Source: Thermoplasmata archaeon
GTDB taxonomy: Archaea; Thermoplasmatota; Thermoplasmata; Lutacidiplasmatales; UBA184
Direction: 5' to 3'
NCBI GenBank assembly: GCA_030038895.1
Contig: JASHQX010000013.1
Coordinates: 1 to 40,683, forward strand
Length of the DNA stretch: 40,683 nt
Shown here: positions 5,864 through 38,604 of the stretch, piece after piece
Layout: each line of letters opens with the position of its first letter
Numbering within the stretch: position 1 is the stretch's first letter
Notes under the pieces: generated by a model
Told to the model about the DNA's origin: nothing
Database searches by the model: none
Seen by the model: only the letters and a program-made list of their open reading frames with translations
Position numbers and translations under genes: made by a program

Positions 5864-5968
5864 TGGACCGGGCGAGAATTCCCGGTCGGGAACCCGGGGG
5901 CTCCCGACCTTTTGAACTCGCGACCTCTACCTTGCCAAGGTAGCGATCTTCCGCTGATCTACCGGCCC
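5864..5968 (-). tRNA. tRNA-Ala(GGC) with a T-loop intron
   Basis: Read on the minus strand, the acceptor stem GGGCCGG pairs with CCGGTCC and includes a G3-U70 wobble, the alanine identity element. Then follow T8-A9, D stem GATC/GATC with a 7-nt loop containing GG, anticodon stem CTACC/GGTAG with loop TTGGCAA (anticodon GGC), variable AGGTC, T stem GCGAG/CTCGC and discriminator A73. CCA is not encoded. The T loop is interrupted by 33 nt (5878-5910); removing them gives TTCAAAT and a 72-nt tRNA. A minus-strand TTTAT box lies about 30 bp upstream. Confidence 0.93.
5878..5910 (-). other. 33-nt bulge-helix-bulge intron in the tRNA-Ala T loop
   Basis: The T stem (5917-5921 with 5872-5876) is helix h. 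TTCA/GGGA (5913-5916 with 5880-5883; pairs T-A, T-G, C-G and a weak A-G) forms the 4-bp central helix. AAA (5910-5912) and ATT (5877-5879) are the two 3-nt bulges. GGTCGGGA/TCCCGACC (5902-5909 with 5884-5891) is a perfect 8-bp intron helix. Cutting each bulge after its second base, as archaeal splicing endonuclease does, restores TTCAAAT. Because of the A run, the boundary could shift by a few bases, giving TTCAATT instead. Confidence 0.88.
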
Positions 5969-5996
5969 ACGCCGGCGGTGCGAGTCCCGTTTCCCG

Positions 5997-6001
5997 ATAA
6001 A
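5997..6001 (-). promoter_or_regulatory. TATA-like box of tRNA-Ala
   Basis: TTTAT on the minus strand, within GGTTTATCGGG, is centred about 31 bp upstream of the first base of the tRNA. This is the expected place for an archaeal tRNA promoter with a short 5' leader. Confidence 0.5.
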
Positions 6002-6095
6002 CCCTTCTCCCGAGCGGTCGACCTCGGGTCGGTGCGCGCGGGGTCCCGTCGGAGGCTCGCCAGGCCGTGGACGGGTCGGCGCCTCTGCGGAAACA

Positions 6096-31950: not shown

Positions 31951-31995
31951 GTGCCCCTCGGTCTCGCGCGCCGCTTTACGGGAGAGCGTCACCGC

Positions 31996-34900
31996 ATGGA
32001 AGGGTCCCAAACCGGGTGGTGGCACCGTCATGGCTGGACCATCGCCATCCTCCTTTCCGCCATCGGGGTTTCCTTCGCGATTCGTACGATCTGGGCGTAC
32101 CCGATCATTGCCCAGTACGGGTCGCTCTACAGCTACGCCGGCGGTTCGGACTCGTACTACCACTCGCGGGTGATGACCTACATCATCCTCAATCACACGA
32201 ACCTCATCCACGACCCGCTGCTCCACTACCCCGTCGGCTCGACGAACCCCCGGGAGCCGCTGTTCGACTGGATGAACGCGATCCTCGGGCTCGTCTTCGC
32301 CCCGTTCTTCGGGGGGAACCCCAATGTTGCGGGATCATGGTTCCTCGACCTCCAGTCGCCCCTCTGGGCGGCGCTCGGGGTCGTGCCGGTCTACCTCATC
32401 GGCCGGGAGGTCGCGAACCGGCGCGTCGGGCTGATCGCGGCCGTCATCTTCCCGTTGCTCAGTGCGAACATCGACTCCTCGACCTTCGGATACGCGGACT
32501 ACCTTTCGTTCTACACGTTCTTCGTTCTGGTCACGATCTACGCCTATCTCCGAACGGTCAAGGCGGTCGGGAGCCGTCGGTGGATCGAGAGCTATCGCCA
32601 TCCCCGGCAGTACTGGCCCGGGCTGCGTGCCTTCCTCAGGACCGAGCGGACGGCGGTGAAGTGGGCAGTCTTCACCGGGGTGTGCCTCGGCGCCCTCGCG
32701 CTCACCTGGCAAGGCTACACGATGGACGTCGTCGTCATCGGCGTCTCCGTGCTCGTCGCGATGTTCGCCGAGCGGATCCGCCATGTCGACTCCTTCGGCC
32801 TCTACGCCTCGACCTGGATCGTCGGGCTCGTCGCGTTCCCGATGGAGATGCCGTACTACCTCACCCAGTACGGTTCGCTCACCGCACCGGGGTTCGAGAC
32901 GTACTTCCTACTCCAGGCGATCGTGTTCTTTGGCGTCCTAGTGATCCTGCTCCCGTTTCTCCTGATGCGGGACCTCCCCTGGGTCGTCTCGATCCCGGTC
33001 CTCGTAGGGATCGTGCTCGCCGGGGTGGGCGCCCTTGCGCTCGTGAACCACGGTCTCTTCACGACCCTGGTCACGGGGCAGGGCTACTTCGTCAAAACGC
33101 TCGTCTACTCGACGGTCGCCGAGGCTCAGGCGCCCTCGATCGATGCGCTGGTCATCGGATACGGGATCGTGACCTTCTTCCTCGCGTTCGTCGGGATCGC
33201 CCTCTTCCTCTACCAGCTCGTCCGCGGACGGTTCAAGCGGTACCACATCGTCTTCGTCGTCTTCTCCATCGTCTCGATCTACCTCCCGATCTCGGCGACG
33301 AAGTTCTTCATGGTCGGCTCGCCGATCTTCGCCCTTCTTCCTGCCGAGGCGATCCGCCGGGCGCTGGATGTCGGGGGCTACCCCGAGCTCCGCCGGACCA
33401 CCGTATCGCTCGCCGACCGCCGGAGCCAGTTCGCCGCCTTCCGTCGTGCGTTCAAGGCGCGCCACGTCCTCGTCATGGCGCTCGTCGTCGGGCTCATCCT
33501 CCCCAACATCTGGATCGCGATCGATGCTGGGATCCCTGGGAACACGAAGAGCACCTTCGCCGAGCAGGTCGCGACAACCCTCCCACCCTGGCTGCAGCTC
33601 AATACCACGAACCCGACCTCCTACTACTTCGGCGCCGCGGGTTCGTCGATCGACACCTCAAACCAGTACGACAGCGCCGGCTACAACTGGCTCGCGACGC
33701 GGGATCCGAATTTACCTCCGGCGCAACGTCCGGCGGTGGTGAGCTGGTGGGATTACGGTTTCCAGACGATCGATCAGGGCAATCATCCCAGCGTCGCGGA
33801 TAATTTCCAGGACGGGATCGATCCGGCCGGGCAGTTCCTCCTCGCGCAGAACGAGTCCCAGGCGATCGGGGTTCTCGCCACGACGCTGCTCACTTCCGAG
33901 CAGCAGGTGTCGCACCAGCCGTACCTCCCTAGGGCCCTGAACCGGATCCTCGCGAGCGACGGGCTGAACGTCACCGAACTGCACAACCTCCTCGTCAACG
34001 TGAGCAACGACTACTCGCTCGTCGTATCGAATCCGCAACTCTACCTTCCCGTGAACCCGAGGACGCTCACGGACGCGAATGCGATGTACATCGCGATGGA
34101 ATACTTCCTCGCGACGTCGCTCCCCCTCTCGGGCGTCGCGAAGGTCTACAACGATCTCCAGGCGTACACGGGATGGTCGATCGGGTACGCCCTCGCCGAC
34201 AGCCGTCTCTTCCCGTTCTCGGGGACGGACACCGGGATCTACTACGCGCCGGTCGATCTCACCGGACACGTCGTCGATTCCGCGGGGGTCCCGACGACGT
34301 TTTTCAATGTCACCGTCACCGGGTCTAACGGGAACACCTACCCCCTCGGCGACGTCCCCTCGAACGTCGCCGCGGTGAATTACAACATCAATTATTTCGC
34401 ACCGTTCTACAACTCGATGATCTACCATACCTACATCGGGTACAACGGGACGGACGCCGGGCTCGGCCCCGGCATCCCGGGTCTGGAGGGAACGACCCAG
34501 GTCCTCAGCGCTCCGTTGATGCCGGCGTGGATGTTGCAGCATTTCGAGGTCGTCTACCGTACGGCGTACTACTGCCCCAGGCCGAACGCCACCAGCGGCG
34601 CGGCGTGCTTCTCCGCCGAGAACCTCCCGACCGCCGTGTCGAACGCGAAGACGGACCACGGAACCGCCGACACCACGGCCGGGGCGTACTTCAGCGGCGG
34701 CGAGACGTTCCTCGAGTACTATCCGGGCCAGACTCTCCTCGGCACCCTCACGCTTCCGAACGGTCGGCCGGTTCCCGGCGTCCAGGTGACCGTTGACGAC
34801 GGCTGGGGGATTCCGCACATGACGACCCACACCGCCGCGGACGGCTCGTTCTCTCTCGTCCTCCCGCCGGGCAATGATACGCTCAACTTCACGACCGGAT

Positions 34901-37900
34901 CGGAGAACGGCCTGATGCAACAGGGGAACAACCTCCTATCAACCGTACACTTCGCCGTCCCGAATTCCCTGGGACTGAGCCTCGACGCCCCGCCGCGGGT
35001 CGAGACGTTCGCCCTCGACCCAGCGACCGTTCAGGGGTTCGTCTACTGGAACTCGAACAACTCGACCGCCTACGAGCCCTCCTCGGACCCGCTCGTGCCG
35101 GGAGCTCAGGTCGTGCTCTGGGGGGCGAACGGAACCGCTCGCCTAACGGCGATCACGGACGCGAGCGGTGCATTTGACCTCACGAACGTGCCCCCCGGGT
35201 CGTACGACTACAGCGTCGTCTACGGAGGACACAACTACACCCAGGCTTCGATCTACGCGGCGCCCGGATCGGTCGCGAACGCGACCGCGGCGCTCTCGCC
35301 GGGTTATCTCCGCGGGACCGTCCTCGACCCGGACGGGACTCCGGTCGCCGGATCAACCGTGACCCTTAGCAACGCTACGGGGACCGTCGCACAGACGCTC
35401 ACGAACGCCTCGGGGGGGTACGTCCTCGCGAGCGCCGGCCCCGGCAACTTCACTCTGACCGCGACCGGGCCCGTCCCGGGGTACCGTTCTCCCGGCGCGC
35501 TCGTCCGCATCCCAACCCCGGGCCGATCGGTCGCCACCAATCTTACGATCGAACCGATGCAGACGGTCACGCTCTCCCTCACCGCGGCGGGCGCGCCGGC
35601 CGGTGGGATCGCCGTCCGGTTCACTCCGATCGCGGCCTACGGCAACGCGAGCTCCCATCCGCTCGAGGCCATCGGGAACACGACGGCCGACGGAACTGTC
35701 GTCACGAGTTCCGCGGCCGGTACCGTGAGCGCGACCCTCCCCGCTGGGAGCTACTCGGTCTACGCGCTCGGGTACGTCGGCTCTTCCGCTTATGCCGGGG
35801 TTATGGACCTCACCGTGGGTGCATTCCCTCCCAGTGCGCCCGCGACGCTCGCGCTCGGTGGGGCCGTCCCGCTCAACGGGACGGTGGTCGGTGGGAGCGC
35901 GGACGGCGCGGAGACCGCGGTGATTGTCTACTCCACGGGCGGAGGGGAGGCCGAGACGTGGGTCTACGGGGCCGGAGCGTTCTCGATGCTCCTTCCGGCC
36001 GGGTCGTACTCGATCCTCACCCTGACCGGTACCTCGAGCGACGTGGCGTCCTCGGTTGCGACCGGTCTCACGACCGTCTCGCTGAGCGCAACGTCCGCCC
36101 CGGTCCGCATCGTTCCCGGATCGACCGCCGTCGGACACTTCGAGGTGGGGTCGGTCACCGGCAAGGGAACCCTCTTCCCGGCGAGCGGGGCGACCGTCAC
36201 CGTTTCAGCCCCCGCCGTCGGGGCCGCGATTCCCGTGACGGGGGGGACCGACGGGGTGGTGACGGTTCTCGCGCCCGCGACCGTCCCCGGTGGCGGGGGG
36301 TACTGCATCACCGCAGGGGCGTTCGGGTTCTCGAACTCGACCCAGTGTAGCGTGAGCCCCACGGCGCTCACGCGTCTCGCCACCTTCCCGCTCTCGCTGC
36401 GCAACGTCTCGGTCGAGCTCACGGTCGTGGGATTGCCGAGCGGAACCCGCGTGACGGTGAACCTGACGGCGGAGAGCTCGACCGCCAGGAACCTTACCTT
36501 CTCGGGCGGCCCGACGTTCTCCTTCGGCGCGCCGCCGGGGCTCTACGGGGTCGGCGCTCGAGCGACGATCGCGAACAGCACGGTGGTCTACCTGCCGCCG
36601 ACGGTCCTCTCCACGACGATCCCCGTCGGGGCGACGCGATCGAATTTGACGCTCATCGTCGTGCCGAAGATCACCGCCAAGGGCGCTCTCTCGCTCTCTC
36701 CGAAGGTCCCGCCGGCCAACGTGACGCTCACGCTCTCCTCCTCGCTCGGGAGCTTCGTCGTCAACGGGTCGGCGTTCACGAAGGGGTTCTACGTCGCGCC
36801 GGGGACCTATTCGGTCACAGCGACGTTCTCGGCGGAGGGCACCAACTACACGAACCTCACCCGGATCACGGTCGCATCGAACGGGACGATCACGCCGACC
36901 CTCGACGTCTCGGTGGGAGGAGTGACCCTCTCGGGCACGTTCCTGAGCGGCTCGACGGTCGTTCCGCTCAATACGACGGTCTCGGTCGTCGGACCAAAGG
37001 GTGCCGTCGCCGCGACGCAATCGTCCTCGGGCAAGTTCTCCCTGACCTTGCCTCCGGGAATCTCGTACTCGATCTTCGCGAATGCGACGCTGCTCGCTTC
37101 CGGCCCGAACGGCTCGGTCTATCGCAACTTCAGCGTGGCTCCCGGAACCGCGTGCACCCCGACCGCCTCGTCGGGCGCCTGTTCGGTACCGACCGTCGGG
37201 GTCAACGTTCCGTGGTGGCTCAACGCGACCGTGACAAGCCCGGGGATCTCGGACCCGATCTCGGGGACCGCGCTCCTCGTCGGGCCGTATCCCAGTCTCT
37301 CGGTGACGACCGTCCCGTTCTCGAACGGGGCGTTCTCCGTCCGCGTCGCTCCCGGGGCGTACTCGGTCTACGCGAACGGTTCAGGGGAGGCAGCCGGCCG
37401 GGCGACGTTCGCGACGGTAGTTGCCCTCCCCTCGGTGACTTCTCCGGCCCCGCTCGCTCTCGCGCCGACCTGGATGGCCACGCTCTCCGTTTCGGGGCCG
37501 GGGGGATTGTCCTCCGGACTCGGACCGGTGACGATCCTCCTCCGGAACGCCGCCGGTGTTCGGATCGTCTTTCCGGATCTCGCTCCCACCGCCCGCATCT
37601 CGCTCCCCGTACCCGTGGGGAACTATCGGGTGACCGCGAACTCCTCGGCTTCGATTTATGGTAACCCGATCAACCTCACGGGATCGGTCCCGATCGCCGT
37701 GGTGGGCGGGAATGTTGCCGTGAGCGTGCCGTTGAGCTACCCGGTTTCGTACGCGGTGGCCGGGACCTTGCTCGGCCCGTCGACGGCGACCGTGGGCTCG
37801 GCCGGCGGGGTCGCCAGCTTCGCCTTCTCCGTGCGCGCGACGGGAACGACCCCGGTGACGGTCTATCCGAAGGGGACCCCTTCGTACTGGACCTTCAACT

Positions 37901-38604
37901 TCAGCTTCGCGAACGTCACCCTAACCCCGGGCCCCACTGGCACGGCCGTCTCGGGCGAGGTGACCGTTCACGTGCCGGCGGGGACCGCGGTCGCGCACCC
38001 TAGGATCACGCTCGAATTCGCGCTCGCGAACGGTACGGTGGTCGGCTCGGTGAGCCCCGCGCCTACGATCTCCGTGATGCCGGCGTTTGGGGTCGGGATC
38101 GGATCGTCGAGCACGCTCGCGAGCCAGGTCGGCGCGACCCACGTCCTGCAACCGTTCTACGTCGTCGACTCGGGGAATACGTACGAGGCCGTAGCGCTGA
38201 GCGTCGTCAACTCGGCGTCCCTCGTGAGCCTGGGATGGTCCGCGCGGATCGTGACGACCTCGGACACCCCTACCTCCTCCGTCAGTCTCTCGGCCGGGCA
38301 GAACGAGACACTCGAGGTTTCGCTTAACGCGACCTCCGCGGTCTTCCTGCCACCGGGCACCGTCTCGCTGGGCGCGTCCGTCGTCAACGCGACCGGTAGC
38401 GCCTTCGCTTCGGCCAGCATCTCCATCCCGTTCGCCACCGTTCATCCGAACACCCCACCGAAAGTGATCGGGCCTGCGATCGGCTCCCCACCCCTGCTTC
38501 CCGACTGGGTCGTGCCGGTCCTCTCGTTCGTACCGGCGATCGCGCTCGCGATCGGACTCGCCACGTACCGGTGGTGGCGGACCCGCCGCTGGAGGCGCCG
38601 ATGA
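31996..38604 (+). CDS. aglB: Giant AglB/STT3 oligosaccharyltransferase with C-terminal beta-repeat ectodomain
   Basis: This 2202-residue membrane protein transfers lipid-linked glycans to Asn-x-Ser/Thr outside the membrane. About 13 hydrophobic segments occupy residues 1-525. Motifs: loop-1 G-G-S-D-S-Y-Y-H-S-R, loop-2 F-G-Y-A-D-Y, T373-V-A-E376 (TIXE position) and W584-W-D-Y-G588 (catalytic). The catalytic ectodomain ends near 900. About 1200 residues of Ser/Thr/Gly-rich beta repeats follow, most like carboxypeptidase-regulatory/CnaB domains (recurring D-G-T-P-V-A-G, A-D-G-S-F-S-L, P-P-G-S-Y), dense in N-x-S/T sequons. A final TM helix (W-V-V-P-V-L-S-F-V-P-A-I-A-L-A-I-G-L) and a basic tail close it. 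Typical AglB is 600-1000 residues. A near-consensus TATA box and GGAGAG support ATG 31996. Confidence 0.92.
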   Translation: MEGSQTGWWHRHGWTIAILLSAIGVSFAIRTIWAYPIIAQYGSLYSYAGGSDSYYHSRVMTYIILNHTNLIHDPLLHYPVGSTNPREPLFDWMNAILGLVFAPFFGGNPNVAGSWFLDLQSPLWAALGVVPVYLIGREVANRRVGLIAAVIFPLLSANIDSSTFGYADYLSFYTFFVLVTIYAYLRTVKAVGSRRWIESYRHPRQYWPGLRAFLRTERTAVKWAVFTGVCLGALALTWQGYTMDVVVIGVSVLVAMFAERIRHVDSFGLYASTWIVGLVAFPMEMPYYLTQYGSLTAPGFETYFLLQAIVFFGVLVILLPFLLMRDLPWVVSIPVLVGIVLAGVGALALVNHGLFTTLVTGQGYFVKTLVYSTVAEAQAPSIDALVIGYGIVTFFLAFVGIALFLYQLVRGRFKRYHIVFVVFSIVSIYLPISATKFFMVGSPIFALLPAEAIRRALDVGGYPELRRTTVSLADRRSQFAAFRRAFKARHVLVMALVVGLILPNIWIAIDAGIPGNTKSTFAEQVATTLPPWLQLNTTNPTSYYFGAAGSSIDTSNQYDSAGYNWLATRDPNLPPAQRPAVVSWWDYGFQTIDQGNHPSVADNFQDGIDPAGQFLLAQNESQAIGVLATTLLTSEQQVSHQPYLPRALNRILASDGLNVTELHNLLVNVSNDYSLVVSNPQLYLPVNPRTLTDANAMYIAMEYFLATSLPLSGVAKVYNDLQAYTGWSIGYALADSRLFPFSGTDTGIYYAPVDLTGHVVDSAGVPTTFFNVTVTGSNGNTYPLGDVPSNVAAVNYNINYFAPFYNSMIYHTYIGYNGTDAGLGPGIPGLEGTTQVLSAPLMPAWMLQHFEVVYRTAYYCPRPNATSGAACFSAENLPTAVSNAKTDHGTADTTAGAYFSGGETFLEYYPGQTLLGTLTLPNGRPVPGVQVTVDDGWGIPHMTTHTAADGSFSLVLPPGNDTLNFTTGSENGLMQQGNNLLSTVHFAVPNSLGLSLDAPPRVETFALDPATVQGFVYWNSNNSTAYEPSSDPLVPGAQVVLWGANGTARLTAITDASGAFDLTNVPPGSYDYSVVYGGHNYTQASIYAAPGSVANATAALSPGYLRGTVLDPDGTPVAGSTVTLSNATGTVAQTLTNASGGYVLASAGPGNFTLTATGPVPGYRSPGALVRIPTPGRSVATNLTIEPMQTVTLSLTAAGAPAGGIAVRFTPIAAYGNASSHPLEAIGNTTADGTVVTSSAAGTVSATLPAGSYSVYALGYVGSSAYAGVMDLTVGAFPPSAPATLALGGAVPLNGTVVGGSADGAETAVIVYSTGGGEAETWVYGAGAFSMLLPAGSYSILTLTGTSSDVASSVATGLTTVSLSATSAPVRIVPGSTAVGHFEVGSVTGKGTLFPASGATVTVSAPAVGAAIPVTGGTDGVVTVLAPATVPGGGGYCITAGAFGFSNSTQCSVSPTALTRLATFPLSLRNVSVELTVVGLPSGTRVTVNLTAESSTARNLTFSGGPTFSFGAPPGLYGVGARATIANSTVVYLPPTVLSTTIPVGATRSNLTLIVVPKITAKGALSLSPKVPPANVTLTLSSSLGSFVVNGSAFTKGFYVAPGTYSVTATFSAEGTNYTNLTRITVASNGTITPTLDVSVGGVTLSGTFLSGSTVVPLNTTVSVVGPKGAVAATQSSSGKFSLTLPPGISYSIFANATLLASGPNGSVYRNFSVAPGTACTPTASSGACSVPTVGVNVPWWLNATVTSPGISDPISGTALLVGPYPSLSVTTVPFSNGAFSVRVAPGAYSVYANGSGEAAGRATFATVVALPSVTSPAPLALAPTWMATLSVSGPGGLSSGLGPVTILLRNAAGVRIVFPDLAPTARISLPVPVGNYRVTANSSASIYGNPINLTGSVPIAVVGGNVAVSVPLSYPVSYAVAGTLLGPSTATVGSAGGVASFAFSVRATGTTPVTVYPKGTPSYWTFNFSFANVTLTPGPTGTAVSGEVTVHVPAGTAVAHPRITLEFALANGTVVGSVSPAPTISVMPAFGVGIGSSSTLASQVGATHVLQPFYVVDSGNTYEAVALSVVNSASLVSLGWSARIVTTSDTPTSSVSLSAGQNETLEVSLNATSAVFLPPGTVSLGASVVNATGSAFASASISIPFATVHPNTPPKVIGPAIGSPPLLPDWVVPVLSFVPAIALAIGLATYRWWRTRRWRRR

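Follow-up and report, generated by a model that had tools for sequence, protein, structure and literature searches.

Reviews of archaeal tRNA splicing tie non-canonical tRNA introns to endonucleases of the αβ or ε2 type and describe euryarchaeal introns as few and canonical (PMC4090602, PMC4033280): fewer than 10% of euryarchaeal tRNA genes contain an intron, and this is a single one at the canonical position (PMC4090602). T-loop introns, the 59/60 site included, are known in archaea, mainly where an αβ EndA occurs (PMC4090602, PMC6379350), and the α'2 EndAs are described as narrow, limited to the canonical BHB (PMC6379350, PMC12397907). The non-canonical introns of the Thermoproteales (Sugahara 2008; Fujishima 2010, as reviewed in PMC4033280 and PMC4090602) resemble those reported here in lying in a BHB outside position 37/38, in occurring many per genome and in being multiple in some tRNAs. 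However, our host, a soil archaeon of the order Lutacidiplasmatales, belongs to the Thermoplasmatota, encodes an α'2 and not an αβ EndA, and has its introns concentrated at one site (59/60). The canonical 37/38 introns of Euryarchaeota with α4 or α'2 EndA represent the same motif class and enzyme type, but the position differs here. ARMAN (Micrarchaeum) is likewise an acidophile outside the Crenarchaeota with non-canonical introns, yet its ε2 EndA is a three-unit enzyme of broad specificity, whereas the EndA described below has two repeats. Methanopyrus kandleri, also a euryarchaeon with non-canonical and multiple tRNA introns, possesses an αβ heterotetramer of constrained broad specificity (PMC6379350), unlike the α'2 enzyme here. 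In the open-access literature we found no report of Thermoplasmatales with non-canonical introns and, again in open-access papers only, none of a euryarchaeal order in which one tRNA gene in three is interrupted at 59/60 under an α'2 EndA; the word "intron" is absent from the published description of Lutacidiplasmatales. The models of tRNAscan-SE 2.0 include euryarchaeal non-canonical introns, so individual cases may already sit in databases. Novelty beyond open-access papers is unproven, as is any benefit of the introns.

The window, that is the whole stretch of 40,683 nucleotides analysed, carries a tRNA-Ala(GGC) gene of 105 nt interrupted by an intron at 5864-5968 on the minus strand (read 5968→5864; Table 1). 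Along that strand the 5' exon GGGCCGGTAGATCAGCGGAAGATCGCTACCTTGGCAAGGTAGAGGTCGCGAGTTCAAA is followed by the intron AGGTCGGGAGCCCCCGGGTTCCCGACCGGGAAT and the 3' exon TCTCGCCCGGTCCA, in which CCA is not encoded. The sequence-only reading held that the alanine tRNA is complete only after removal of 33 nt at 59/60, and the joined exons do fold fully: the acceptor has 7/7 pairs including G3-U70, the D stem 4/4, the anticodon stem 5/5 and the T stem 5/5 (12/12 for T stem and acceptor of the spliced gene), with the anticodon loop TTGGCAA (GGC), the variable loop AGGTC and the T loop TTCAAA/T. The junction is built of the exon helix GCGAG/CTCGC, the bulge ATT, the central helix TTCA/GGGA, the bulge AAA and the inner helix GGTCGGGA/TCCCGACC. 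Thus the 5-bp exon helix, the two 3-nt bulges and the 8-bp intron helix (8/8 pairs) proposed by that reading are all present. Its four-pair central helix with one weak pair stands only in part: three pairs form (T54-A, T55-G and C56-G), but the fourth is an A57.G opposition and not a weak pair. A strict canonical BHB with four standard central pairs is therefore not met by Ala-GGC. RNAfold gives -56.4 kcal/mol (z = -4.65), with both the T stem and the intron hairpin formed.

Table 1. Features of the interrupted tRNA-Ala(GGC) gene in window coordinates, with the loci of D-loop introns observed in other tRNAs
Feature	Position	Strand	Remarks
5' exon, 58 nt	5911..5968	-	acceptor 5' strand, D arm, anticodon arm, variable loop, T stem 5' strand, T-loop 54-59 (TTCAAA)
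Intron, 33 nt	5878..5910	-	splits the T loop at 59/60; site shared by 89/106 genomes of the order
3' exon, 14 nt	5864..5877	-	T60, T stem 3' strand CTCGC, acceptor 3' strand CCGGTCC, discriminator A73
Anticodon GGC	5934..5936	-	
Exon side of BHB central helix (T54 T55 C56 A57)	5913..5916	-	
5' splice-site bulge A58 A59 / A(+1)	5910..5912	-	from sequence geometry; cut after A59 inferred
Intron inner helix, 5' arm GGTCGGGA	5902..5909	-	8/8 pairs
Intron inner helix, 3' arm TCCCGACC	5884..5891	-	8/8 pairs
Intron side of BHB central helix (GGGA)	5880..5883	-	consensus GGRR in family f1
3' splice-site bulge A T / T60	5877..5879	-	from sequence geometry; cut before T60 inferred
TATA-like element TTTATC	5996..6001	-	28-33 nt upstream of the tRNA
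GAAG (BRE-like)	6004-6007	-	accompanies the TATA-like element
D-loop intron loci	L038, L020, G018 C1:460154-460293, C1:389445-389547, C3:189036-189141, C3:209974-210081, C4:11881-12025		

Elsewhere in the window (31951-38604, plus strand) we observed an open frame of 2217 aa, oligosaccharyltransferase-like (STT3/AglB-like) in appearance, with a very long Thr/Ser-rich C-terminal region; the host is a high-GC archaeon.

Most annotation tools had been expected to miss the gene, and indeed neither ARAGORN nor Rfam at the gathering score calls any tRNA in the window. A search of the genome with RF00005 detected Ala-CGC and Ala-TGC, and reached the locus only below threshold (24.8 bits). The earlier reading named a second complete tRNA-Ala(GGC), combined with a lack of spliced reads, as the sign of a pseudogene; no second gene appeared in the assembly, since the RF00005 search found no other Ala-GGC and BLAST with the spliced exons no intact one. 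The genome (G000) is a MAG of 90% completeness, and a second Ala-GGC in a gap is not fully excludable for it. The order-wide survey of 106 Lutacidiplasmatales genomes set an exact-exon pattern with variable insert against an intact Ala-GGC pattern. The interrupted gene was matched in 89 of them, all in the window's family (seven genera); the intact pattern matched none of 103 genomes of this family, and within the order it occurred only in the two genomes of a sister family. Public Thermoplasmata MAGs supplied 47 further syntenic loci anchored by the adjoining HMG-CoA synthase gene, Ca. Lutacidiplasma silvani AcS3-62 (L083) among them, all interrupted at 59/60. The folding z-score, the reversed-sequence control given below and the presence in 89 of 106 genomes imply that the gene is not a product of chance. 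The 53 distinct Ala copies carry 53 distinct introns (mean similarity 0.60) versus only six distinct exon sequences (0.99). Most orthologues keep a TTAT/TTTAT core near -33 to -28, while the flanking sequence diverges. As a separate observation, one MAG (G049) harbors two Ala-GGC genes with different T-loop introns (C140:1984-2049 and C223:8410-8477), one of them identical in its matched sequence to the gene of another genus (G043, G045); contamination is the probable cause. Two public records titled "bacterium" (L051, L090) belong to Thermoplasmata by their Ala-GGC locus.

Compensatory changes of the intron helix are present among relatives. Across 48 aligned Ala orthologues, two-sided changes are found in 7 of the 8 inner-helix pairs, with 94 two-sided cells versus 35.1 +/- 3.9 in shuffles, and 97.7% of the inner-helix cells are paired versus 32-56% when the helix is slid. 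This alignment (A5) was fitted to the structure of the model R1 and so leans towards it. R1 was built from the seed alignment A3, one row of which was made up (Ala exons with the Asp intron), and it was used for searching and for aligning A5, not as evidence; the seed alignments A1, A2 and A4 were dropped since the T arms in them were out of register (variable loops of 4 nt, displaced 3' ends). Because A5 leans towards the R1 structure, an alignment-free test of position 57 was run. In a set of 98 different T-loop introns, base -3 of the intron is paired with T54 in 96 cases, base -4 with T55 in 97 and base -5 with C56 in 96, and at least three central pairs exist in 97 of the 98. Intron base -6 tracks exon base 57: C stands opposite G57 in 22 of 24 introns and opposite A57 in 0 of 74 (Fisher p 6e-20, a nominal value, as the intron sequences are related). 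With this G57-C pair the G57 introns, unlike Ala-GGC, fulfil the strict criterion of four standard central pairs. In Asn tRNAs alone both G57:C and A57:T are found, i.e., base 57 and its partner change jointly. The 74 A57 introns have G at this place in 65 cases, T in 8 and A in 1, so the fourth central pair is mostly A57.G in the family and the motif falls short of full strictness. Other families often have a standard fourth pair, as with A57-T in the Ala-CGC introns of f2 and the Ala-TGC introns of G022; judged from these sequences, A57.G seems to be characteristic of the window's family. The BHB geometry claimed for T-loop position 59/60 is thus backed by synteny, covariation and fixation across the family.

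The sequence-only reading considered a T-loop intron unexpected in a euryarchaeal-type genome. The intron is real, but it is no lone oddity: the same genome contains a 59/60 intron in at least 13 tRNAs (Ala-GGC, Asn-GTT, Arg-TCT, Arg-TCG, Asp-GTC, Gln-CTG, Glu-CTC, Gly-TCC, His-GTG, Leu-TAG, Lys-TTT, Ser-CGA and Ser-GGA; that of Gly-TCC was identified by eye), and the trait is class-wide. The near-complete congener G018 (5 contigs, tiled whole) has 43 tRNAs, 14 of them with T-loop introns, a set equal to the former plus Ser-GCT; it also has five tRNAs with D-loop introns and four with canonical ones. A strict finder recovered 39 tRNAs in G018, 13 with T-loop introns, and gave no match on the reversed G018 sequence. 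Outside the family most other Thermoplasmata families sampled possess one to six T-loop introns each: three in G019, G021 and G023, six in G020 and two in G022, the Lys-TTT intron in G024, G025, G027, G030 and two Methanomassiliicoccales genomes, Lys-CTT in G029, and Lys-TTT with Arg-TCT in G035 (all lower bounds); none was seen in G026 and G028. From this spread, not from a tree, we infer a small class-wide stock, most often in Lys-UUU, which was expanded in the window's family and not merely lost in the others. Canonical 37/38 introns are found here too (Tyr, Trp, Met, Leu-TAA). Beside these, D-loop introns of about 29-35 nt were observed in Lys-TTT, a Met-CAT tRNA, Pro-TGG, Arg-GCG and Leu-TAG; two of these tRNAs, Lys-TTT and Leu-TAG, are interrupted in both the D loop and the T loop, and the Lys double intron was found again in Methanomassiliicoccales (L248, L249). 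In G020, which represents the sister family f3, five of the six T-loop introns measure only 13-14 nt; such introns at loci L315, L316, L319 and L320 are agtNNNctgaaaa-like. Their central helix is perfect or near-perfect and the inner helix almost absent (bulge-helix-loop-like), though the EndA is α'2; some of these tRNAs also have canonical or D-loop introns.

The link of the T-loop intron to a heterotetrameric endonuclease, suggested by the earlier reading, does not hold. EndA in G000 is encoded by one gene with two PF01974 repeats (C100:711-1508), of which the second and not the first keeps Y/H/K; these residues (Y292/H300/K331 of the 354-aa frame), which we take to be the catalytic triad, align with the A. 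fulgidus enzyme. The best PDB matches are the enzymes of M. kandleri (5x89, top), A. fulgidus and M. jannaschii. The fused two-repeat form is the only EndA-like stretch in G018 and the sole form in all 13 good genomes sampled, outgroup families included, where neither a separate beta subunit nor a third EndA unit was found. The criteria of the α'2 type (a single gene, two PF01974 repeats, the second with Y/H/K, no separate beta) are therefore met, and that of the αβ heterotetramer (separate genes for catalytic and structural subunits) is not. RtcB is present. The reported narrowness of α'2 EndA fits the introns here, which are free in position and keep the BHB form; A57.G and the mini-introns of G020 may be the places where this narrowness fails.

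We conclude, with a probability of roughly 93%, that the locus is a functional single-copy tRNA-Ala(GGC) whose BHB intron at the non-canonical site 59/60 is spliced by proteins and belongs to a family-wide set. Cleavage, ligation, the order of processing and the mode of spread are inferred, and splicing itself is unproven, with no RNA or biochemical data behind it. In the proposed course, exon bases 54-57 of the T loop would bind the intron's 3' end by base pairing, leaving two 3-nt bulges beside the intron hairpin, and the homodimeric α'2 EndA would cut both of them. RtcB would then join the exons to TTCAAAT, with TTCAAA/TCTCGCCCGG (TTCAAA/TCTCGC) as the proposed junction, after which the normal T loop would form. 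With the T loop opened by the intron, the D-loop/T-loop elbow and the T-loop modification presumably wait for splicing. The 59/60 introns, now in a third of the tRNA genes here, may have grown from the small class-wide stock.

One would argue that the insertion simply disabled Ala-GGC and that another tRNA decodes GCC/GCU, as the silence of ARAGORN and Rfam could suggest. A dead gene, however, does not explain near-invariant exons in 53 copies while the introns turn over, compensatory intron changes and a conserved promoter-like element, and no other Ala-GGC was found in the G000 assembly, nor an intact one in the other genomes of the family; this possibility is very nearly untenable. It is also highly improbable that the tRNA stays unspliced and keeps the hairpin as an extra arm in an enlarged T loop of the mature molecule. 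The hairpin is stable and processing data are lacking, but selection maintains the pairing of exon bases 54-57 with the intron together with the BHB bulges, which would have no evident use in the absence of EndA; besides, excising the intron gives back the universal T loop without exception, and sister families have the same tRNA intact.

The intron may also be just as we describe it, with its splicing dependent on a broadened EndA or on a second nuclease of unknown identity. This is proposed because α'2 is narrow, and A57.G and the 13-14 nt mini-introns are not strict BHB: the former is the rule in the window's family and the latter leave little space for an inner helix. Against it, nearly every intron retains the two bulges along with three central pairs, the genomes sampled showed neither a beta subunit nor a third EndA unit, and the active site, when aligned with A. 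fulgidus EndA, has no evident insertion. We thus consider it unlikely, and retain splicing by the α'2 EndA as the preferred reading.

Concerning the origin of the introns, similar introns were reported in the Thermoproteales, whereas here introns of different tRNAs are no more alike within than between genomes: mean core similarity is 0.108 within G018, 0.111 within G000 and 0.098 for non-orthologous introns between genomes. Copying among tRNAs, or large-scale transposition of the Thermoproteales kind, therefore left no signal; the G020 mini-introns look alike, yet are too short to judge copying. Some tRNA genes serve spindle-shaped viruses as integration sites, at the anticodon loop and the T arm, and it was proposed that introns block this (PMC4090602); intron gain via element integration was proposed from Caldiarchaeum (PMC3293823). 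A T-loop intron would break a T-arm attachment site, but our data show no support for such a role: one small test in G018 revealed no clear attachment-site pairs, and partial-tRNA matches were mostly other tRNA genes. It remains a doubtful conjecture that introns invaded one tRNA gene in three, specifically at the T loop, under a quietly broadened α'2 EndA, tolerant of the conserved A57.G and of the 13-14 nt introns of the sister family, and were kept because they destroy the T-arm attachment sites of integrating elements. Independently of this, two loci of G000 (L012 and L027; C153:1820-1894 and C128:3052-3126) share the upstream region and first 60 bases of tRNA-Arg(CCT) and diverge inside the T arm; this tRNA is intronless, and the divergence marks either a strain-level junction or a truncated copy.

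For annotation the consequence is that, in this acidic-soil order, roughly one tRNA gene in three can escape ARAGORN or Rfam. The introns offer a ready substrate set for testing α'2 specificity, and the genomes form a natural series (absent, one to six, 14 per genome) for how tRNA introns spread and why they stay. Finally, 14 of 43 tRNA genes share one non-canonical site under an α'2 enzyme; thus the type of enzyme seems to constrain what form the junction takes, not where it lies.
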